This document shows positions 4,654 to 27,070 of a stretch of DNA of 53,691 nucleotides, one piece after another. The stretch's first letter is position 1; each line of letters opens with the position of its first letter. Below the pieces are notes generated by a model that searched no databases, had not been told where the DNA came from, and saw nothing but the letters and a program-made list of their open reading frames with translations. Source of the stretch: a virus; the IMG/VR virus record IMGVR_UViG_3300030430_003901, positions 1 to 53,691 of that record; one strand, 5' to 3'. Made by a program: the position numbers and the translations under genes.

Positions 4654-4677
4654 AGTGTTTTGATTTTAAAATTTGAA

Positions 4678-4709
4678 CAAAGATACGAAAAAAATTCGAC
4701 ATATCCAAA
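4678..4709 (-). promoter_or_regulatory. Leftward promoter P1 (extended phage consensus)
   Basis: Minus strand TTTG, 20-base spacer, TATCTTTG: a Bacteroidota-type -33/-7 pair. The spacer starts with an ATATGTCGA block and ends in TCG, as in the promoters at 14.2, 16.5 and 18.8 kb. It drives the papain-like gene. Confidence 0.85.
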
Positions 4710-4722
4710 TCCTTCCTGTTGG

Positions 4723-12236: not shown

Positions 12237-12753
12237 CTTGTAGTGTTTTCTTTATTTTGTTTTTGACTTTAGTTGTTACATTGTACTTGGTAGAAATGTT
12301 ATCTACAATCCATTGCAACCCCTTGGTTTTATTATCTACAACATATCTTAAAACATCTTCCATCTTTTCTTCATTGATGTCAAGTAAAATGTTTTTTGGT
12401 TTCTCCTCTTGTTGTGCTATAGCATTTTGTACCTCGTCTGCTGATGCAACTGAAGTCTCCAACCCAATACCAAAGTTTGCCAATGCTCTACCCCATGCTG
12501 AAGTTTCGCAGTTCTCTACATAAGAAGTTTTATTTATAAAGGTACTTCCTCTTTCTTCCTCTGCCATTCCTGTTGCGATTACTTTTCCTTCATCGTTAGA
12601 AATTGTAGCAAGGATAAGGATTGATTTGTCTGTTTTCTCTAACACTTCTGATGTTAGTGAAAAGTTTGGAAAGTTTTTTCTGAAATAAATAAGTCTCTCA
12701 TTTACTTCAACATACTCTTTGCCTTTGATGTTTATGGTTTTCAATTTAGTCAT
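12220..12753 (-). CDS. Putative phage recombination / ssDNA-annealing protein
   Basis: 177 residues. It contains YVENCETSAWGRALANFGIG followed by SVASADEVQNAI, a signature of a widespread phage protein group next to RecE-type or lambda-exo-like nucleases. A beta-rich N-terminus (YVEVNERLIYFRKNFPNFSL) precedes it; a basic helical C-terminus follows. By analogy with Red/RecET pairs it is probably the ssDNA-binding or annealing partner of the exonuclease directly downstream. The annealing role is inferred from context. Confidence 0.55.
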   Translation of the reverse strand: MTKLKTINIKGKEYVEVNERLIYFRKNFPNFSLTSEVLEKTDKSILILATISNDEGKVIATGMAEEERGSTFINKTSYVENCETSAWGRALANFGIGLETSVASADEVQNAIAQQEEKPKNILLDINEEKMEDVLRYVVDNKTKGLQWIVDNISTKYNVTTKVKNKIKKTLQDGIKK

Positions 12754-14176: not shown

Positions 14177-14198
14177 AGTGTTTTAGAATAAAGTTTGA

Positions 14199-14230
14199 CA
14201 ATATTACGAAAAGAAATCGACATACGCAAA
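14199..14230 (-). promoter_or_regulatory. Leftward promoter P2 (extended phage consensus)
   Basis: Minus strand TTTG, exact 20-base spacer beginning CGTATGTCGA and ending TCG, then TAATATTG, a weaker -7. It drives the run of genes from 14176 leftwards. Confidence 0.75.
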
Positions 14231-14245
14231 TCTTTGATTAATTAT

Positions 14246-15295: not shown

Positions 15296-15466
15296 TTAAT
15301 ACAGTTTTAATTCTGTCCACTCTATATCAAAAGTAAGTAATGACTCATGCTCATCCTCATCTCTTTCAGAGTTGTTATCTATTAACCATTTGTCAACATC
15401 ATTTGTGATGTCAACGATGTATGTGTATCCTGTGTTGTCAGTAAATCTGATAATTGCTACTTTCAT
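15296..15466 (-). CDS. Small hypothetical protein (56 aa)
   Basis: I place the start at the ATG at 15466 (MKVAIIRFTDNTGYTYIVDI). The longer in-frame ORF from 15535 would run through the T-arm of the tRNA-like RNA directly upstream and encodes no convincing protein there. Beta-rich then acidic; function unknown. Confidence 0.5.
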   Translation of the reverse strand: MKVAIIRFTDNTGYTYIVDITNDVDKWLIDNNSERDEDEHESLLTFDIEWTELKLY

Positions 15467-15486
15467 GTCTATTAAATTAAAATTAG

Positions 15487-15603
15487 AGGGCAAGTCAGGA
15501 TTCGAACCTGCTTCTATAACTAAGGTATGTGTCAAATCAGTAGAGGTTTATGACTTCTCTACCTATACCACTCCCCTCCACCCATGTGGAGATTACTTGC
15601 CCT
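15487..15603 (-). ncRNA. tRNA-like structure TLS-1 (acceptor, D-like arm, T-arm; no normal anticodon arm)
   Basis: Minus strand: a 9-bp acceptor-type stem (AGGGCAAGT with ACTTGCCCT) and a T-arm with a 4-bp CAGG/CCTG stem and the 7-base loop TTCGAAT. A D-arm-like hairpin (CTCCA/TGGAG, loop CATGGG) lies near the 5' end. The anticodon region is replaced by a longer insert in which GGTAT/ATACC encloses GTAGAG/CTCTAC. At 117 bases it is longer than a tRNA. It sits between the stop at 15653 and the start at 15466. The gap before it folds into hairpins (GGTGGTT with AACCATC, and GGCTAT with ATAGTC). A processing role is inferred. Confidence 0.65.
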
Positions 15604-15652
15604 GTCTGATGGTTTGTTTTTGGACTATCGCATAGCCATAAGAGTAACCACC

Positions 15653-16213
15653 TTACGAAACCTCTTGCTCTTTCTCAACGAAGTCATACTTCTGTCTAAG
15701 ATTGCCTTCATGACAGTCGACAGGAAACCACTTCTCCAACAACCTCTTTCTCTCACCATAGAGCCATTGGGTGCCATTGTTTTTCAACATATCCCTCACA
15801 TCTTGACCAATCCAACTATAACGAAACCCCTTGGTGTGTGCCTTGTTTGTATCTTTTAAGTCATCATAGTCAGGCAACCTCTCATGAAGTAATTCAAACA
15901 TTACCTCCTCGCTGATGTCTTTATACCATCGTTGATTACCTGCCTTATCATATAGTTTACTCTCATGATAGTCTCCAACCATTATGATTTCATCACCTGC
16001 CCATGTGCCTTTGTATCGGATGAATTTACTTGTGCCTTCATGCCACTCACCCCAACCCCCACTACAAGTAGTGATTAGATGTCCAAGTGCCTGTAAGACA
16101 GACCCTCTGTCTCCATTACTTATAATTTCTCCATGCTTACAGCCACTACCAAATGTCATTGGCTCAAGTACCTGCTTCTTGGTTTTGTTTACGATTTTAA
16201 AATATTGTCCCAT
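15653..16213 (-). CDS. Conserved phage/plasmid hypothetical protein (186 aa)
   Basis: The start MGQYFKIVNKTKKQVLEP, then MTFGSGCKHGEI, WGEWHEG and AGDEIIMVGDYHES, match a family of phage and plasmid proteins that begin MGQYYxxVNxxK and share FGxGxK and a W-rich core. No biochemical function is known to me. About 20 bases of spacing follow before the next gene. Confidence 0.6.
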   Translation of the reverse strand: MGQYFKIVNKTKKQVLEPMTFGSGCKHGEIISNGDRGSVLQALGHLITTCSGGWGEWHEGTSKFIRYKGTWAGDEIIMVGDYHESKLYDKAGNQRWYKDISEEVMFELLHERLPDYDDLKDTNKAHTKGFRYSWIGQDVRDMLKNNGTQWLYGERKRLLEKWFPVDCHEGNLRQKYDFVEKEQEVS

Positions 16214-16214
16214 A

Positions 16215-16445
16215 TTATATTTTTTTATTAATTAATCTCAGTAAAGTTGAAATATCGCCTATGGCAAATTCCATGTCGGTATCAAGCATATCACATTGTT
16301 CAATAAGAAACATATGCACGATATCGCATTGTTTGATGAGGTGTTTCATCTCACTCTTCAAATCTTTTTTTGTATTAGTGGTATTGGATAGGGAAAGAGC
16401 ATCCTCCAATTCTGAATTAGTTATTGATATATTAATTTTACTCAT
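16215..16445 (-). CDS. Small hypothetical protein (76 aa)
   Basis: A helical protein with a Ser/Asn-rich start and a middle LKSEMKHLIKQCDIVHMFLI. It is the first gene after promoter P3, and its transcript would carry the tRNA-like RNA at 16461-16503 as leader. ATG preceded by AACACT. Function unknown. Confidence 0.5.
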   Translation of the reverse strand: MSKINISITNSELEDALSLSNTTNTKKDLKSEMKHLIKQCDIVHMFLIEQCDMLDTDMEFAIGDISTLLRLINKKI

Positions 16446-16460
16446 AGTGTTTATATTTGT

Positions 16461-16503
16461 GGAGTTGGGGGACTCGAACCCCCTGTTTTTCCATTAAGAC
16501 TCC
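16461..16503 (-). ncRNA. tRNA-like minihelix TLS-2
   Basis: Minus strand: a 5-bp acceptor-type stem (GGAGT with ACTCC), a 15-base connector containing ATGG and ending in ACA, then a T-arm of GGGGG/CCCCC with loop TTCGAGT. Just upstream is a 6-bp hairpin at 16506-16524 (GTTTGG with CCAAGC, 7-base loop). The acceptor stem has one extra C; it is the least regular of the four. It lies between promoter P3 and the start codon at 16445. Confidence 0.5.
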
Positions 16504-16530
16504 TTGCTTGGCAACCCACCAAACATTCGA

Positions 16531-16562
16531 CAATAATACGACAAAAAATCGACATATGCAAG
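16531..16562 (-). promoter_or_regulatory. Leftward promoter P3 (extended phage consensus)
   Basis: Minus strand CTTG, 20-base spacer starting CATATGTCGA and ending TCG, then TATTATTG. It shares the extended spacer with P1, P2 and P4. The expected start point is just ahead of the hairpin and TLS-2. Confidence 0.75.
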
Positions 16563-16596
16563 TTTTTGTCCAACTATTTTTTTAGTAACTTCGTTA

Positions 16597-16821
16597 CTAT
16601 CTGTCGTTTGCAATTTCAAATTCAAAATCAGAATTGTCGTTGCACTCATGACACGGTGTGCTGTATGCCATGTCACAATAATAATCTGAATGCCATATCT
16701 CACCCTCACCACCACACACCTCACACTCATCATTATAAAAGTCTGCGTGTTCCAAACACTCAGAACATATGTCGGTCTCCCACTTTGGTGGGGCATCACA
16801 ACAGTTACTTAATTCACTCAT
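16597..16821 (-). CDS. Zinc-ribbon-like protein (74 aa)
   Basis: Cys-rich: SNCCDAPPKW, CSECLEH, CEVCGGEGEIWH, CDMA and CHECND, enough ligands for two small zinc sites. Its ATG overlaps the preceding stop (ATGA). Small acidic zinc-ribbon proteins of this type are frequent in phage early operons; target unknown. Confidence 0.6.
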   Translation of the reverse strand: MSELSNCCDAPPKWETDICSECLEHADFYNDECEVCGGEGEIWHSDYYCDMAYSTPCHECNDNSDFEFEIANDR

Positions 16822-16964
16822 AGATATTTATATTTAGATTGTTTTGCTTTCCATTGCTTATGCCAATACGCATACTCAGAGTCCTGAGGTCGCAACACTT
16901 GGATGCGACCCCCCTCCTCCTTCTGAACACATATGACATTTGTATTTAACTTCTTAACTATCAT
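16818..16964 (-). CDS. Small basic hypothetical protein (48 aa)
   Basis: I choose the ATG at 16964 (MIVKKLNTNVICVQKEEGGR), giving an 11-base overlap with the previous gene and an ATGA overlap with the next. The longer in-frame start at 17015 lies deep in the preceding gene. Basic, aromatic C-terminus (WKAKQSKYKYL). Function unknown. Confidence 0.5.
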   Translation of the reverse strand: MIVKKLNTNVICVQKEEGGRIQVLRPQDSEYAYWHKQWKAKQSKYKYL

Positions 16965-18276
16965 CGTTCTCAAGTTTTGCAAGATACTCAAATTGTGCAT
17001 CGTTCTGCTTTCCAAACAACTCGATGAAGTGTTGTTCGTTATGCTCCTCCTTCACATACTCGCTATCGAATGCACCCTTGAAAACTAAATCGCCTTGACA
17101 CGCATGAGACAGGTCATATATAATTTTACTATCATTAGGGTATTTGACAATCAAATTGCAATGACCATATCTCTTGGCAGGATATCCATTACTACCATAG
17201 GTTGTTGATGACTTGTCAGAAGTATAGACCTTACAGTTTGGGAACTTCTCTTGTAGTTTTCTTTTACTCTCAAGCAAGAAAACTTCTCGCCTTTGTTCTG
17301 CCTGTACCTTTTGGGTTTCTGTCTTAACCCACGCCCTATGGTCTAACATATATGTAGTGAAGTTGACAGTTCTCCTTGTTTCACTCCATCGATTAGTCAT
17401 TTTATAGTTCACAACCTTCCTGTCATATCCACTCCTTTTAGTAACCAAATTTCCTGTCAAAAGACTGACTGACTTGTCCTCATCGTATCGAGAACCTTTG
17501 ATGCTATAGTACAGTTTGGCTTCTCCCTTCTGCTTATATAATAAACCTCGGTTAGCGTCCCTGAAATTAAAGGTTACCTCCAACAGTTTACCCACAGTAT
17601 AACCATAACCTGATACTCCAAAAGATAAAGTTATCGAGTGTGTGTCTCTATCGTTAGACCAAACATCGTCCTCGAAGGTTATCTCATTGCCAATTACACC
17701 ATTGTACTCATCAGTATACCAATCCTTTCGTCTCTCAACGATTGGTTTCTCTTTATACTGCTGAATAAAACTTTTAATTTTGAGGTATTCGTCATAGTCC
17801 TCCCACGCACTATACATACGCATAGCGAGTTGGTCGCATAGATGATACTTAATCATTGAAATAAGTGCGATGTCAGGGACTAACTCACCTTTGATTCTTT
17901 TGAACTCGTGTAAGGTGTTACGCCATTTACTGACCTCTCCAACCTTATATATATACTCCCCTTCATTGTCAGAGTTTTTATACATCTTTGATATCAAGTC
18001 CTCATGCTTGAGTAAATCCATCCAAAAATCATTATGCTCTTGTTTGACAACAGCCCCTTGATATTCAGTTACAACCTTTGGTTGAGGTAGTGTCTTGTCA
18101 CTACTATAATGCTTGGCACTATCGTAGTCAGGGTTCGCCAAGAAGTCCTGTGTCGTGATTGTCGCACTCTCTATATAGGTGTCAAAGTTCTCGAATATTT
18201 CATTCACAAGAGCAACCTTGTGGATTGGATTCCTGAGTCTGCTTTCAGACATTTTCTGTTTTAGTGTTTTTTCCAT
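16954..18276 (-). CDS. Large hypothetical early protein (440 aa)
   Basis: Start chosen at 18276 (MEKTLKQKMSESRLRN), with an AT-only leader. The in-frame ATG at 18339 lies inside a hammerhead ribozyme core and is unlikely to be used. The protein is polar, with helical N-terminal third, beta-rich middle (EITFEDDVWSNDRDTHSITL, VSGYGYTVGKLLEVTFNF) and a long basic helix around KVQAEQRREVFLLESKRKLQ. I do not recognise it; phage genomes of this size often carry one large uncharacterised early protein. Confidence 0.6.
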   Translation of the reverse strand: MEKTLKQKMSESRLRNPIHKVALVNEIFENFDTYIESATITTQDFLANPDYDSAKHYSSDKTLPQPKVVTEYQGAVVKQEHNDFWMDLLKHEDLISKMYKNSDNEGEYIYKVGEVSKWRNTLHEFKRIKGELVPDIALISMIKYHLCDQLAMRMYSAWEDYDEYLKIKSFIQQYKEKPIVERRKDWYTDEYNGVIGNEITFEDDVWSNDRDTHSITLSFGVSGYGYTVGKLLEVTFNFRDANRGLLYKQKGEAKLYYSIKGSRYDEDKSVSLLTGNLVTKRSGYDRKVVNYKMTNRWSETRRTVNFTTYMLDHRAWVKTETQKVQAEQRREVFLLESKRKLQEKFPNCKVYTSDKSSTTYGSNGYPAKRYGHCNLIVKYPNDSKIIYDLSHACQGDLVFKGAFDSEYVKEEHNEQHFIELFGKQNDAQFEYLAKLENDDS

Positions 18277-18291
18277 AATATAATTTTTTTT

Positions 18292-18348
18292 ATACCTAAG
18301 AACCCGAAGGTTCTTTCGTGCCATTTCAGGACTACTCATCAGAGGTAT
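18292..18348 (-). ncRNA. Hammerhead ribozyme HHR-1 (type I)
   Basis: Minus strand, in order: stem I ATACCT; core CTGATGA; stem II of five pairs with two single-base bulges (bases 18335-18318); GAAA; stem III GAACC-TTCG-GGTTC closed by a C(UUCG)G loop, then the U that pairs with the last A of GAAA; the unpaired U cleaved at its 3' side (18298); stem I return AGGTAT. Stems I and III are perfect. It starts one base after the stop codon ending at 18349 and finishes 16 bases before the next ATG at 18276, filling the gap. Cleavage would leave a 5' leader of about 20 bases. Confidence 0.75.
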
Positions 18349-18738
18349 TTAACACATCGCATTGAAGTGTCTTTCGATATCAGTAGCGATTATCTTTATC
18401 TCATTGAAGGAGTGTCGATAATCAGAACTCTCTACCTCATCTCTGACTTCAACTTTCATTCTCCTTGGCAACTCGTTATATATATCTATACCCTTCTCGT
18501 ATTTCTGTAGGGCTTCCCACACATACTTCTCACGACCATGCTTGAGGTAGTGCGTGTTAATCAATCTCGCACCTTCATATATATAATTAAGTGCGTGGTC
18601 TTTCTTGGTCTCATACGAGTTCTGTATGAGGTCTGAAGTAGATTTCCAAATCTTATTCAAGATTTCTTTCTGCTCCTTGTTGACACCTTGTGTCTCGAGA
18701 GCAATCAACTGTGTTTGTATTTCGAGTATTGGGTTCAT
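18349..18738 (-). CDS. Hypothetical helical protein (129 aa)
   Basis: All-alpha, charged, with RLINTHYLKHGREKYVWEAL and a C-terminal IKIIATDIERHFN helix. Promoter P4 lies directly upstream and a hammerhead directly downstream, so its message would be trimmed just after the stop codon. Function unknown. Confidence 0.55.
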   Translation of the reverse strand: MNPILEIQTQLIALETQGVNKEQKEILNKIWKSTSDLIQNSYETKKDHALNYIYEGARLINTHYLKHGREKYVWEALQKYEKGIDIYNELPRRMKVEVRDEVESSDYRHSFNEIKIIATDIERHFNAMC

Positions 18739-18757
18739 AGTGCTTTGAAAATTTCGA

Positions 18758-18789
18758 CAAACATACGAAAAGATTTCGACATATGCAAA
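18758..18789 (-). promoter_or_regulatory. Leftward promoter P4 (extended phage consensus)
   Basis: Minus strand TTTG, 20-base spacer starting CATATGTCGA and ending TCG, then TATGTTTG. The match to the Bacteroidota consensus is complete and the extended spacer is shared with P1-P3. Confidence 0.85.
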
Positions 18790-18813
18790 TCTTTTTTTTG
18801 TCTGTCAGGTTAG

Positions 18814-18856
18814 GTTCAGGGAAGGGAATCGAACCCTTCTGCGTCCAACCCTGAAC
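18814..18856 (-). ncRNA. tRNA-like minihelix TLS-3
   Basis: Minus strand: a 7-bp acceptor-type stem (GTTCAGG with CCTGAAC), a 10-base connector GTTGGACGCA, then a T-arm of six pairs (core AAGGG/CCCTT) with loop TTCGATT. The connector shares TGG and GCA, in the same positions, with TLS-4. Acceptor plus T-arm make a continuous helix of tRNA-like length. D-stem and anticodon arm are missing. It follows the stop of the HAD phosphatase gene and precedes promoter P4. Confidence 0.68.
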
Positions 18857-18875
18857 TACAGGCATATATATATAA

Positions 18876-19334
18876 CTAAAAATCACCCTCTGCTACCTGA
18901 AAGCAGGGTATCCCATTCCTTCTCCACATCTTGACAACTTTATTCCTGTCATCAAAGACAGCAATTACTCTGTTCCTGTCAATGATTTGTGGGTCGTTCA
19001 ACCATGACTCCTTCAGTTCATCATCAGGCATCATGAGTTTGTCTAAAGGTCTCATAATCAGTGCCTTCCAAGGAACCTTATGCTCCTTCAACCACTTGAC
19101 AGTAGCGTCTTGTGTTGCTATACTTCTGCCACTAAATATATATATATCGTGGTTGAAATTGTCGAGTTCTCTCGCTGTCTTTATGACTGCGTGATTAGGT
19201 TTGTCCATGTCGATGTTCTTGGGGTCAAAAAATTTGTTCCAATCAATCTTACCTTCAGGAGTGCTTGAGTAATCTCTCCTGTCTTGGATGTCAGCGAGTG
19301 TGCCATCCAAATCAAAAATGTAAATGTCTCTCAT
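18876..19334 (-). CDS. HAD-family polynucleotide 3'-phosphatase (Pnkp phosphatase-domain type)
   Basis: 152 residues. Motif I IFDLDGTLAD (nucleophile Asp), motif II IFSGRS, the LIMRP segment typical of the Pnkp phosphatase branch, and motif IV VFDDRNKVVKMWRRNG. No kinase domain is attached. Family knowledge: the T4 Pnkp phosphatase domain removes 3' phosphates and 2',3'-cyclic phosphates from RNA ends. Here it sits in an operon studded with hammerhead ribozymes, which generate exactly such ends. Function as an RNA end-healing enzyme is inferred; it may instead act on DNA 3' phosphates. Confidence 0.85.
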   Translation of the reverse strand: MRDIYIFDLDGTLADIQDRRDYSSTPEGKIDWNKFFDPKNIDMDKPNHAVIKTARELDNFNHDIYIFSGRSIATQDATVKWLKEHKVPWKALIMRPLDKLMMPDDELKESWLNDPQIIDRNRVIAVFDDRNKVVKMWRRNGIPCFQVAEGDF

Positions 19335-19343
19335 ATCTGTAAA

Positions 19344-19535
19344 TTAAGTTAAGTTATTTATTATTCTGTTCAACTTCCCACTCTCAACCTGATAAGTCAA
19401 ATCATCAACCATACCAAGTTCTCTATCTCGTTCTAACCGAGCGAGTTCGTCTTGGTAGATTTCCAATAGGTCTTTTTCTGCCATTGCTTTTCTGTTCCAA
19501 GCGTCTGCTTTTATTTGCCACTTTGTTTTTCTCAT
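19344..19535 (-). CDS. Small coiled-coil protein (63 aa)
   Basis: A charged helix throughout (AEKDLLEIYQDELARLERDR), basic N-terminus with a Trp. Only nine bases separate it from the HAD phosphatase gene. Function unknown. Confidence 0.5.
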   Translation of the reverse strand: MRKTKWQIKADAWNRKAMAEKDLLEIYQDELARLERDRELGMVDDLTYQVESGKLNRIINNLT

Positions 19536-19555
19536 ATATATAAATTAAAATTAGT

Positions 19556-19596
19556 TTCAGGGGGTGGAATCGAACCACCCTGCAACCATTCCTGAA
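19556..19596 (-). ncRNA. tRNA-like minihelix TLS-4
   Basis: Minus strand: a 6-bp acceptor-type stem (TTCAGG with CCTGAA), a 10-base connector AATGGTTGCA, and a 6-bp T-arm (core GGTGG/CCACC) with loop TTCGATT. Acceptor plus T-arm total 12 pairs, the same as in tRNA. A strong hairpin (19598-19644) ends one base before the acceptor stem. Host RNase P recognises acceptor/T-stem minihelices, so a cut at the acceptor 5' side is plausible (inference). Confidence 0.7.
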
Positions 19597-19597
19597 T

Positions 19598-19644
19598 GAA
19601 GGACAATCACACCCCTCATAAATGAGGGGGGTGTGATTTCCTTC
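19598..19644 (-). other. Strong 3'-end hairpin upstream of TLS-4
   Basis: Minus strand: GAAGGA/TCCTTC base, ATCACACCCC with GGGGTGTGAT, then TCA/TGA around loop TTTA, with small bulges. It starts five bases past the stop of the gene at 19650 and ends next to TLS-4. It has no T-run, so it is not a simple terminator; it would become the mRNA 3' end if TLS-4 is cut. Confidence 0.7.
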
Positions 19645-19649
19645 GCTGA

Positions 19650-20066
19650 TTATACATTTAACCTTCTCTCCTTGATAGCGTCACAGAGTATCTCTCTGTA
19701 CTCTTGGCTACCTCTCCTGATAGCACCCAAAACATCGCCCTCCAAGACCGAGGTCATGAACGAACCTTCACCTTTTTTCATGGTGAACTTCATATCTATT
19801 TCACCATTGTCAGTCAGGTAGTATGCACACCTCGAACCGATATAACTGTCTGACTCATAATTCAAGTTTGATAACCCATCCATATCATTTATATTTTTAC
19901 ACAGGGCTGTAGTTAGAACCACTAACATTTGGTATCCTTCCCAATTAACCAAGTATTCGTAACTCTTGTAATGACCTGTTGGATGCACACCATCTGCTAA
20001 AGGTCTGCTTAGACACTTCGGTACGAAGTACTCGTTGATTTCGATTTTATTTGATTGTTTTTCCAT
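19650..20066 (-). CDS. Hypothetical protein (138 aa)
   Basis: Contains KCLSRPLADGVHPTGHYKSY, a VNWEGYQMLVVLTT strand region and a C-terminal EYREILCDAIKERRLNV helix. Its transcript would start with the downstream half of hammerhead HHR-2. No family recognised. Confidence 0.55.
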   Translation of the reverse strand: MEKQSNKIEINEYFVPKCLSRPLADGVHPTGHYKSYEYLVNWEGYQMLVVLTTALCKNINDMDGLSNLNYESDSYIGSRCAYYLTDNGEIDMKFTMKKGEGSFMTSVLEGDVLGAIRRGSQEYREILCDAIKERRLNV

Positions 20067-20088
20067 CGTATATATATATTTAAAAATT

Positions 20089-20139
20089 TCTGTTTCGTCC
20101 TTTTGGACTCATCAGGATAGGCACACACCTATCGACAGA
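20089..20139 (-). ncRNA. Hammerhead ribozyme HHR-2 (type III)
   Basis: Minus strand, in order: stem III TCTG; U then C (cleavage after C at 20134); stem I GATAGG-TGTGTG-CCTATC; CTGATGA; stem II GTCC-AAAA-GGAC; GAAA; stem III CAGA. Every core position is canonical, the NUH site is GUC, and all three stems are perfectly paired. It lies between the stop of the ArdC-like gene (20165) and the ATG at 20066. Confidence 0.92.
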
Positions 20140-20157
20140 GGGGGTCTTGCGACCCCC
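20140..20157 (-). other. 3'-end hairpin adjoining HHR-2
   Basis: A perfect 7-bp stem (GGGGGTC with GACCCCC, tetraloop GCAA of GNRA type) directly abutting ribozyme stem III. After cleavage it would lie six bases from the new 3' end of the upstream mRNA. Confidence 0.85.
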
Positions 20158-20164
20158 ATCTCGA

Positions 20165-21121
20165 TTACTTCCCCTCGAGAACATAGTCGACTGCTCTCGC
20201 TGACTTTGTCAGAGCCGATACAACTGCTTTCGAGTCCTCCATCTTAACCCTCTTGACCCATCCATTGATGTATGCTTGAGAGTTGGTTTCATCGTCACCA
20301 CAGTCAGTACAGATACCTGAGAGACCTGATAACATCATCGCACCACTCTCAGCAATCAGTTCCTCAAAAGCATATCTGTCAGCACCAAAGAAGGTGAAAT
20401 CAACTATGCCCTCTCTCTTGAGTCTGCTCTCATGACCTGTTGAGTGAATCATCTCATGGAACAGCGTCTTGTAGTAGTTATCTATTTTCTTGAACTGCTT
20501 CTTTTCAGGCATCACTATTTTGTCCTCTGTTGGACTGTAGTACGCTCTGTTTTGGTTGACATCCTTGATGGTCAACTTCTTGTTCGCCTTCTTGTAATCT
20601 CTGATTACCTTTTCAGCACTCTCGATTGGAGTAATCTCAACTTCCTCTGTTGGAACTCTTTTTGGTTTGATGTCGCCCTCTATCTGAGATATATTATATA
20701 CTCTGAAGTAGAACATCGAGAAATTTGTGTATACATCACTCTCCTCACATTTTTCCTTCCTGATACACTCATCAAGTTTTGTGTACCACTTACCTGAACC
20801 TTTAGGTTTGAATACGCAGTAGGAAATTTTCCAATTGTACACCTCAGAGTATTTCGTCATCTCATCTGTTTTTACTCTGTAACCTGCTTTCACGATTGAG
20901 TTCAGAGTAGCCCATTCGTTGACTGTGTACTCTCTCGCCCTCATCACATGGTTGAGGAAAAACTGATTGATACCTCTGTACTCTCTACCTGAGAAGTGGT
21001 TGATGGGGTGATTGTCCCCTGATTTCCATGGTCGGAACCATTGTAGACCTTCCTTCTGAAGACCTTCGAGAAGTGCCTGTTTGACCTTCTCTGTTACATC
21101 GAATTTAGATTTTTTTGTCAT
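20165..21121 (-). CDS. ArdC-type anti-restriction protein (ssDNA-binding domain plus zincin)
   Basis: 318 residues. The N-terminal half matches the ArdC N-terminal domain: KVKQALLEGLQKEGLQWFRP, GREYRGINQFFLN and the WATLNSIVKAGYRV region. The C-terminal half is the metallopeptidase domain found in polyvalent proteins: LFHEMIHSTGHESRLKR (HExxH, third H in GHE) and YAFEELIAESGA. Known members block type I restriction or bind single-stranded DNA during DNA entry. Placement as the second gene of the early arm fits an early anti-defence role. Confidence 0.9.
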   Translation of the reverse strand: MTKKSKFDVTEKVKQALLEGLQKEGLQWFRPWKSGDNHPINHFSGREYRGINQFFLNHVMRAREYTVNEWATLNSIVKAGYRVKTDEMTKYSEVYNWKISYCVFKPKGSGKWYTKLDECIRKEKCEESDVYTNFSMFYFRVYNISQIEGDIKPKRVPTEEVEITPIESAEKVIRDYKKANKKLTIKDVNQNRAYYSPTEDKIVMPEKKQFKKIDNYYKTLFHEMIHSTGHESRLKREGIVDFTFFGADRYAFEELIAESGAMMLSGLSGICTDCGDDETNSQAYINGWVKRVKMEDSKAVVSALTKSARAVDYVLEGK

Positions 21122-21134
21122 TTTTCAAAATTTT

Positions 21135-21144
21135 GGCTTTCGCC
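21135..21144 (-). other. GNRA mini-hairpin in mRNA leader (copy 1)
   Basis: Minus strand GGC-GAAA-GCC within AACAGGCGAAAGCCA, 14 bases before the ArdC-like ATG. A near copy lies at 21444-21453 before the previous gene. Confidence 0.5.
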
Positions 21145-21160
21145 TGTTATATATATATTT

Positions 21161-21209
21161 CCTGTTTCGCCTTCTTTGGCTCATCAGCACAGGGTCACCT
21201 GTGGACAGG
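21161..21209 (-). ncRNA. Hammerhead ribozyme HHR-3 (type III)
   Basis: Minus strand, in order: stem III CCTG; U, C (cleavage after C at 21204); stem I CACAGG-TGAC-CCTGTG; CTGATGA; stem II GCC-AAAGAA-GGC; GAAA; stem III CAGG. Core and stems are canonical and perfect. It fills the gap between the stop at 21233 and the ArdC-like ATG at 21121. Its stem sequences differ from HHR-2 although the architecture is the same, which is covariation within the genome. Confidence 0.92.
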
Positions 21210-21227
21210 GGGGAACCGAAGTCCCCC
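21209..21227 (-). other. 3'-end hairpin adjoining HHR-3
   Basis: GGGGGAC-TTCG-G(T)TCCCCC with a C(UUCG)G loop and one bulged T. It directly adjoins, and by one base could compete with, ribozyme stem III. It would cap the 3' end left by cleavage. Confidence 0.8.
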
Positions 21228-21232
21228 TCAGA

Positions 21233-21427
21233 CTACGCTACTCTGTCCTCGAATCCATAGAGGTCGCCAAGCGTTTGAAAGATGTTGTCTCTCTCTACCT
21301 CATATTCCTCCTCTGTAATCCAACCTTGAGCAAATAGTTTCTCGAGGTTGTCCTCAAGGAAAAATAAGTGTCTTGCTTCTTGAGTAGTGTTATCTGTTGT
21401 GTTAGTATTTGTAATATTCGTATTCAT
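21233..21427 (-). CDS. Small acidic protein (64 aa), first gene of the leftward arm
   Basis: Start chosen at 21427 (MNTNITNTNTT...) because the leftward promoter -7 box (21479-21486) overlaps the alternative in-frame ATG at 21481. An Asn/Thr-rich low-complexity start is followed by helices LFFLEDNLEKLFAQGWITEE and EYEVERDNIFQTLGD, the latter resembling short C-terminal oligomerisation helices. As the first early gene it could be a host-takeover factor; no family recognised. Confidence 0.55.
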   Translation of the reverse strand: MNTNITNTNTTDNTTQEARHLFFLEDNLEKLFAQGWITEEEYEVERDNIFQTLGDLYGFEDRVA

Positions 21428-21443
21428 ATCTGTTAATTTTTGT

Positions 21444-21453
21444 GGCTCTCGCC
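21444..21453 (-). other. GNRA mini-hairpin in mRNA leader (copy 2)
   Basis: Minus strand GGC-GAGA-GCC within AACAGGCGAGAGCCA, 16 bases before the ATG at 21427. Same context as copy 1; the loop differs but stays GNRA. Confidence 0.5.
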
Positions 21454-21478
21454 TGTTATATTTATTTAAATTCATGCT

Positions 21479-21509
21479 CAAATATAGTTCAATTTTCGTT
21501 CAATCCAAA
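21479..21509 (-). promoter_or_regulatory. Leftward promoter P5, start of the early arm
   Basis: Minus strand TTTG, 19-base spacer, TATATTTG: a complete Bacteroidota -33/-7 promoter. The spacer carries two ATTGAAC copies. It lacks the TATGTCGA block of P1-P4, so it is probably read by host polymerase alone at the start of infection (inference). Confidence 0.8.
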
Positions 21510-26539: not shown

Positions 26540-26819
26540 ATCTAAAATGAAATGTAATGTTGTTGTAAAAAGCGACAGAGCAGGTAAAAAGAAAATGGTC
26601 AAAGCTTGTGAGGGAGGTAAAGAAAAACTCATACACTTCGGAGCTACAGGTTATGGTCATAATTATTCTGCTGCTGCAAGAAAAAGTTTTAGAGCTAGAC
26701 ATAAATGTGGTAGTGCCAAATCAAAACTAACAGCAAGGTATTGGGCTTGTAAAACTTTATGGTCCGGACCGGGTGGAAGCAAGAAGTCTTCTCCGAAAAA
26801 TAGGCAAGGAAAATATTAG
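26529..26819 (+). CDS. Small basic protein, DUF5754-like (96 aa)
   Basis: KEKLIHFGATGYGHNYS, then ARKSFRARHKCGSAKSKLTA, RYWACKTLW and a basic tail. KSFRARHxC...KxxARYWxCxxW is the signature of a family shared by phages and some giant viruses, generally linked to virions. The Cys/His set could bind zinc. Confidence 0.7.
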   Translation: MADKSKMKCNVVVKSDRAGKKKMVKACEGGKEKLIHFGATGYGHNYSAAARKSFRARHKCGSAKSKLTARYWACKTLWSGPGGSKKSSPKNRQGKY

Positions 26820-26827
26820 TATATTTG
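26820..26827 (+). promoter_or_regulatory. Rightward -7 element (TATATTTG)
   Basis: A -7 consensus 27 bases before the ATG at 26855, starting at the base after the previous stop. No clear -33. Confidence 0.4.
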
Positions 26828-26854
26828 TAAAATAAACTTTTTAAAAAATTAGAA

Positions 26855-27070
26855 ATGAAACATCAAGGTTATAACGCAAGACTAGACGAATCAATCGGTA
26901 ACAAAGATAAAGGTCCTAAAAGCCAAAGCTTAAAAGACCGTAGAGACGAGTCTAAAGGCGAATCAAAACATTTGACAGGTCACGCTTATTCAGGAGACCA
27001 CTCAATGAAAGAAGATAAGCACTATCCAAAAGATGTCCACGGACACTTAGGTAGTTTAATTAGTAAATAA
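26855..27070 (+). CDS. Small hydrophilic protein (71 aa)
   Basis: Very polar, His/Lys/Asp-rich (GPKSQSLKDRRDESKGESKH, HAYSGDHSMKEDKHYPKDVH), likely disordered until bound. Virion-associated small protein by context. Confidence 0.5.
   Translation: MKHQGYNARLDESIGNKDKGPKSQSLKDRRDESKGESKHLTGHAYSGDHSMKEDKHYPKDVHGHLGSLISK

Follow-up and report, generated by a model that had tools for sequence, protein, structure and literature searches.

In mitochondria, tRNA shapes lie between the genes of polycistronic transcripts, and their excision separates the mRNAs. In phages, clustered hammerhead ribozymes (HHRs) that flank genes, ardA among them, were described in 2011, were active in vitro and in E. coli and were proposed to process mRNA (Perreault et al., 2011; PMC3088659). 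A further device is the mascRNA/menRNA element, which is cut by RNase P and RNase Z, the RNase P cut giving the upstream RNA its 3′ end; two D-loop guanosines and the T-loop build the elbow that both enzymes recognise (PMC11693755), and RNase P also cleaves model hairpins composed of an acceptor and a T-arm (PMC11143913). Here these systems are compared with the leftward gene block of virus record IMGVR_UViG_3300030430_003901, a 53.7-kb stretch that was analysed whole and is hereafter called the window, in which HHRs and tRNA-like structures (TLSs) occupy the gaps between genes. Punctuation of the transcript, by self-cleavage at the HHRs and by host RNase P (and RNase Z) at the TLSs, is the best explanation of this arrangement, with a probability of about 0.76.

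Between 15.3 and 21.2 kb, the minus strand of the window carries three HHRs (two of type III and one of type I), the 41-nt minihelices TLS-3 and TLS-4, the larger TLS-1 and the weaker TLS-2, listed here in the order of transcription together with the hairpins beside them.

21210..21227, minus strand: UUCG-loop hairpin (fold) directly abutting HHR-3; after cutting by HHR-3, the upstream mRNA would end with it
21161..21209, minus strand: HHR-3, type III, 5′ of the ArdC-like gene; predicted cut 21204/21203 (after GUC, before C)
20140..20157, minus strand: GGGGGUC-GCAA-GACCCCC hairpin (fold) abutting HHR-2
20089..20139, minus strand: HHR-2, type III, 3′ of the ArdC-like gene; predicted cut 20134/20133 (after GUC, before G)
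19598..19644, minus strand: long strong hairpin (fold; gap z −5.5) ending 1 nt before TLS-4
19556..19596, minus strand: TLS-4, 41-nt tRNA minihelix with a 6-bp acceptor, an AAUGGUU micro-D-arm, GCA, a 6-bp T-stem and a UUCGAUU loop; predicted RNase P cut 5′ of 19596 and RNase Z cut near 19555
18815..18855, minus strand: TLS-3, 41-nt tRNA minihelix with the micro-D-arm GUUGGAC
18292..18348, minus strand: HHR-1, type I, with stem III AGAACC-UUCG-GGUUCU; predicted cut 18298/18297 (after CUU, before A)
16461..16503, minus strand: TLS-2, weaker tRNA-like element, its T-arm perfect but its acceptor only 5 bp long; partial match to the minihelix model (E 0.09)
15488..15602, minus strand: TLS-1, larger tRNA-like element with a 7-bp acceptor, a 4-bp D-stem, a T-arm and a variable insert replacing the anticodon arm

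A preliminary description of this locus, made from the letters alone, had named seven elements, and a scanner together with covariance models recovered each of them in place and on the minus strand. Its remark that every gap over about 60 bases holds such an element was borne out as well: all seven non-coding gaps longer than 60 nt hold one, and an eighth apparent gap is coding (16818-16964). T-arm hairpins with TTCRANY loops number four on the minus strand (15.5–19.6 kb) and zero on the plus strand; about 1.7 are expected per shuffle for both strands together. What the sequences themselves show is how the elements are built and covary, their bias in strand and position, where the hairpins lie and the exchange of devices.

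The evidence that bears most on function comes from relatives (numbered L###; further records are numbered G###), which were collected by primase and ArdC searches that yielded 95 loci, and it concerns the 3′ ends of two genes.

20165..21121, minus strand: ArdC-like anti-restriction protein gene (Pfam ArdcN and MPTase-PolyVal), between HHR-3 and HHR-2
16597..16821, minus strand: small Cys-rich gene (family 26), upstream of TLS-2

The ArdC gene is orthologous in the window, L084, L085, L004, L097 and L098 (55% identity between the window and L004; L097 and L098 are longer pieces of the L003 and L005 contigs), and its 3′ side bears a type III HHR in the window, L084 and L085 and a TLS minihelix in L004, L097 and L098. 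Family 26 is orthologous between L084 and L004 (47%, E 4e-33) and is matched by the window copy too; 3′ of it lies a TLS in the window, L004, L097 and L098 and a type I HHR in L084 and L085. HHRs and TLSs are thus interchangeable at two orthologous junctions. The junction of HHR-3, 5′ of ArdC, carries a type III HHR also in L084, L004, L097 and L098. Relatives with the same gap pattern and different sequences, which the preliminary description had predicted, therefore exist and include exchanges of an HHR for a TLS; the elements are intergenic, lie on the sense strand and are kept in position but not in sequence. Since unrelated devices can replace one another, the cut itself appears to be what is selected, and we regard this as strong circumstantial evidence. 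The downstream replication genes overlap or nearly touch, and no devices lie between them.

Within the window, the scanner found exactly three HHRs, all on the minus strand and in gaps that had been named beforehand, and none in 40 dinucleotide shuffles. HHR-2 and HHR-3 show the CUGANGA...GAAA core, a UH cleavage triplet and three stems with stem III open, as expected of type III, and HHR-1 has a complete core with stem I open and stem III closed, as expected of type I; from these features, all three are predicted to self-cleave. The preliminary description had named Rfam models as a check, and they gave support in part: Hammerhead_3 matched the type III pair with 46.2 and 37.4 bits (E 6e-8 and 2e-5), yet below the curated cut-off of 48.5 bits, the type I ribozyme had no match, and TLS-1 scored only 24 bits, as tRNA-Sec. 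A type III model built from relatives gave E 1.7e-17 and 2.8e-13 for the same pair, window copies being in its training set. No Rfam match reached the curated gathering threshold in the window, nor for the HHRs and minihelices of seven relatives' loci; ARAGORN found no tRNA in the window, where the anticodon arm and cloverleaf of canonical tRNAs are lacking (TLS-3 and TLS-4 are without an anticodon arm), and a DNA-level search of annotated phages gave no match. By ARAGORN and the Rfam gathering thresholds alone, all the elements would be called absent. A ribozyme near-identical to HHR-1, with a compensatory change in stem III, is present in L085. Orthology of the genes flanking these two copies was considered and rejected as unsupported by comparison, so that the ribozyme seems to have moved, or its neighbours to have diverged beyond recognition.

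Across the window and the 95 loci, a slightly relaxed scanner found 57 distinct HHRs, all sense and none antisense, compared with one in 840 kb of shuffled sequence; with the strict scanner, every HHR lay outside called genes. In the type III alignments, 96% of pair cells are formed and many double changes occur, and the relatives-built model gave 31 matches with E <1e-7 in 1.6 Mb, all on the strand of the leftward operon. In the cultured phage elemoE, one match to this model lies ahead of the first gene that runs leftward. A hairpin of −9 kcal/mol or stronger stands just upstream of 71% of type III HHRs, mostly 0 nt from the start of stem III (11% with shuffled flanks). In type I, a separate upstream hairpin is rare (11%), and stem III is itself a hairpin of 5–14 bp (median −11.8 kcal/mol) that ends at the cut; in both layouts, the upstream mRNA would thus receive a hairpin at its new 3′ end. 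Upstream hairpins had been noted beforehand for five elements of the window, which holds for HHR-2, HHR-3 and TLS-4; those of TLS-1 and TLS-2 proved weak. The distance from the 3′ end of an HHR to the next ATG is mostly 13–30 nt.

Two further observations concern the gaps of these relatives. Some phages reuse a hairpin sequence of their own at many early-gene 3′ ends (L018/L048, L036/L038 and L102-L105; AGTCCGTT..AACGGACT; GTCTCTTCGAAGAGAC; GTGTCTTCAAAGACAC), and it serves as HHR stem III, as upstream hairpin or as part of a TLS. A conserved gap element occurs in L099 (reverse, ~17744-17833), L100 (reverse, 12464-12552) and L101 (reverse, 17191-17279), in the order hairpin, CACACAGATGGC, hairpin with a loop (e.g., CCTCC) that can pair to a downstream GGAGG, and TAGCC; its sequence resembles an H-type pseudoknot, and it may be another device for cutting.

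TLS-3 and TLS-4 share a common 41-nt plan, in which a 6-bp acceptor is followed by an NN-YGG-NN micro-D-arm, GCA, a 6-bp T-stem with a TTCGATT loop and the returning acceptor strand. Such molecules have the features of an RNase P-type substrate, namely a 12-bp coaxial stack of acceptor and T-stem (6+6), the T-loop UUCGAUU and the invariant UGG (elbow GG), and by analogy the placement of this UGG fits an elbow role as in mascRNA. A minihelix covariance model, trained on a set that includes the window copies, gave E 2.6e-17 for TLS-4 and 2.6e-15 for TLS-3. Among 32 minihelix sequences, 99.6% of pair cells are formed, both partners have changed in 13 of the 14 pairs, and the signal is lost when the partners are slid against each other. 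Acceptor pairing was a selection criterion for these sequences; the fair test is a pattern confined to linker and T-loop, from which the 2-bp micro-D-arm pairs (7:13 and 8:12) are likewise excluded. With the acceptor unconstrained, this pattern gave 55 contig matches, 27 of them with complete or near-complete pairing of acceptor and T-stem; the others mostly have three acceptor pairs or fewer, and many resemble one ordinary tRNA type ending in ACCA.

The minihelix class, which is missed by both ARAGORN and Rfam, occurs in many unrelated phages of very different base composition, often in several copies and on one strand per phage; the 47-kb record G022 has eight, all within 5.6 kb of one strand, and two to five occur in other records. 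A close-variant pattern gave 20 matches in viral contigs versus six in 257 Gb of genome contigs, some of which are ordinary tRNAs. In L118, several minihelices start beside a stop codon, and only about 15 nt separate their far end from the next start, which leaves little of the gap that is not minihelix. With moderate confidence, and less than for punctuation as such, we take the minihelices to be a widespread, undescribed class of phage RNA that is dedicated to offering host RNase P and RNase Z a place to cut between genes and is exchanged with HHRs as equivalent punctuation.

The larger elements point to where such shapes may have come from. TLS-1 has four relatives of the same layout with mostly different acceptor stems, in which the D-arm and T-arm are present and the insert at the place of the anticodon arm is variable or missing, and five early gaps of the cultured, distant relative phi38:1 (L184) contain tRNA-Glu genes or tRNA-like elements. 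Together they suggest that anticodon-less shapes may derive from real tRNAs, which would be expected if selection maintained no more than what RNase P and RNase Z read. Also in phi38:1, the gap 26783-26908 (minus strand), beside early genes, ends in a tmRNA-like 3′ half (GACGAGGGTTCGATTCCCTCCGCCTCCACTAA). On the 3′ side of TLS acceptor stems (window, L003-L005, L036, L118 and phi38:1), the discriminator base is mostly followed by CTAA (or CAA or CGA), which is CCA-like but not CCA.

The terminase of the window shares 74% identity with the terminase of an uncultured Manatee Spring podovirus and 46% with those of the Flavobacterium elemo phages, and portal matches are found also among Cellulophaga and Tenacibaculum phages. 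The leftward genes (~21.5 to 4.2 kb), which include those for the ArdC-like protein, a PNKP-type phosphatase and a primase/helicase, are termed early on the strength of gene content; rightward genes for GroEL, terminase, portal and structural proteins begin at 22.5 kb. The remaining features of the leftward block are as follows.

21479..21509, minus strand: promoter-like TTTG-N19-TATATTTG, matching by consensus only (some matches to the pattern arise by chance), immediately before the first leftward gene; the early transcript putatively starts here
18876..19334, minus strand: HAD phosphatase of PNKP type (Pfam PF25109, E 1e-30), between TLS-4 and TLS-3
18758..18789, minus strand: promoter-like TTTG-N20-TATGTTTG box, a consensus match only, between TLS-3 and the next gene

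The phosphatase could act on RNA ends made by cutting, although phages often carry genes of this kind. Two non-coding gaps further left, 14177-14245 and 4654-4722, both longer than 60 nt, hold neither an HHR nor a TLS; they look like promoters because they contain TTTG-N20-TANN(T/A)TTG boxes within a shared ATGTCGA...TTTCGTA motif. The bare box pattern has a background of about seven per window on shuffled sequence, so that only the shared motif is persuasive. The interval 16822-16953, a candidate gap free of devices, was rejected as such since it is covered by the conserved 48-aa open reading frame 16818-16964, which relatives likewise keep open in the corresponding gaps. A repeated leader motif, ATAACAGGCGARAGCCA, which forms a small GNRA-loop hairpin, is found on the minus strand at ~21440-21460 and 21130-21150, near the starts of the first two leftward genes.

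In the mechanism that we propose, the leftward early transcript would be cut between genes into separate mRNAs, probably co-transcriptionally. At three junctions this would occur by hammerhead self-cleavage, which would give the upstream mRNA a stable 3′-terminal hairpin, expected to resist 3′ exonucleases, and leave a short A/U-rich leader ahead of the next start codon. At three or four junctions, a stripped-down tRNA shape without a normal anticodon arm would be offered to the host tRNA maturation enzymes, with RNase P predicted to cut on the 5′ side of the acceptor (before 19596, 18855, 16503 and 15602 for TLS-4 to TLS-1) and RNase Z, or exonucleases, probably trimming on the 3′ side. This is in essence the two-mode punctuation advanced in the preliminary description, and it is the best reading, with exchange of the two devices at orthologous gene ends in its favour; we infer cleavage, the action of RNase P and RNase Z on the TLSs (from structure) and the purpose of separating mRNAs.

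Several points weigh against it. TLS-2, with only a 5-bp acceptor, makes a weak case, and the predicted HHR-1 cut follows CUU, a less favoured triplet. Type III HHRs in which A.A or U.U replaces the G-C pair 10.1-11.1 by the core recur in L004, L009, L010, L013, L014, L015, L049 and L052, and these variants may be slow. Many of the relatives' loci have few or no devices, and many do not reach the early region. The promoter-like boxes inside some gaps mean that gene separation could be partly transcriptional. The TLS minihelices as a whole have no clear enrichment of upstream hairpins (41% versus 33% in shuffles, at −6 kcal/mol); a general upstream-hairpin rule for TLSs was accordingly rejected, and the logic of 3′ protection is borne out for hammerheads only.

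An unlikely alternative, though the best of those weighed, is that the elements are tuned attenuators or destabilisers whose exposed ends lower or time particular early mRNAs, separation not being the aim; it draws on the restriction of devices to the first, accessory part of the early operon and their absence between the tightly packed replication genes, and regulation is among the roles considered by Perreault et al. (PMC3088659). The hairpin left at the new 3′ end by both HHR types, however, looks stabilising for the upstream mRNA, and the exchange of unrelated devices argues for selection on the cut itself. Slightly less probable is a non-cutting role of the TLSs, as decoys for tRNA enzymes, translation or packaging signals or aminoacylated minihelices, their intergenic place being simply the available non-coding space. 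Minihelices can be bound by other tRNA-binding proteins, and structure alone is no proof of use by RNase P, but in L118 the element nearly fills the gap between stop and start, and HHRs take the place of TLSs at orthologous sites. Lower again we rank the proposal that only the hammerheads cut and that each TLS is a tRNA gene in decay or an attachment site of tRNA origin: true tRNAs (tRNA-Met and tRNA-Arg) do occur in the same region of some relatives, early gaps of phi38:1 contain tRNA-Glu and some larger TLSs look as if they came from tRNAs, but decay fits poorly with the strong pair-by-pair covariation, which includes the 2-bp micro-D-arm, with a fixed 41-nt architecture in unrelated phages and with several copies per genome that have different acceptor stems. 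Ligation of segments released by HHR pairs into circular RNAs is very improbable: HHR-3 and HHR-2 do flank the ArdC gene, the predicted 5′-OH and 2′,3′-cyclic phosphate ends could be joined by RtcB-type ligases and phi38:1 encodes an annotated tRNA splicing ligase, but the window proteins that were examined include no ligase, the presence of TLSs among the HHRs is at odds with it, and circular or spliced products were looked for without success by Perreault et al. (PMC3088659).

Punctuation by interchangeable devices would give phage hammerheads a concrete function to test, a question open since 2011, and it suggests that a minimal class of tRNA-like RNA is kept apparently only for being cut and that two unrelated cutting chemistries substitute for each other in evolution; cultured relatives (the Flavobacterium elemo phages, with Flavobacterium sp. 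BAL314 as host and an HHR at 18099-18151 of MT497072, and Cellulophaga phage phi38:1, with Cellulophaga baltica as host) make tests possible. The preliminary description knew of no phage system of this form, which was too broad for the hammerheads, whose gene-flanking clusters are on record in the 2011 report (PMC3088659); the hammerhead part takes that published proposal further, to a large phage group with relatives that infect Bacteroidota. Both the class of minihelices and the exchange of devices appear to be new, no paper on either having been found in a literature search that excluded most subscription journals and all preprints. The prophage clusters of Perreault et al. are alike in that several HHRs flank single genes or short blocks, one of them anti-restriction (ardA there, ArdC-like here); they differ in their prophage context and, so far as the available description extends, in having no tRNA-like devices, abutting 3′ hairpins or exchange at orthologous junctions (PMC3088659). 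MALAT1/mascRNA and MEN-beta/menRNA share with the phage elements a tRNA-like form with a reduced D-arm and two conserved elbow guanosines, whereas they are human non-coding RNAs and the phage minihelix is shorter (41 nt), has no equivalent of the anticodon arm and is cleaved by prediction (PMC11693755). Unlike mitochondrial punctuation, that of the phage would use shapes without an anticodon arm in alternation with self-cleaving ribozymes, excision being proposed here. The theta ribozymes of gut phages, which are hepatitis delta virus (HDV)-like and are proposed to trim the 3′ trailers of real suppressor tRNAs rather than to cut mRNAs between genes, likewise bring self-cleaving ribozymes together with tRNA processing in phages of Bacteroidota (PMC10879173).

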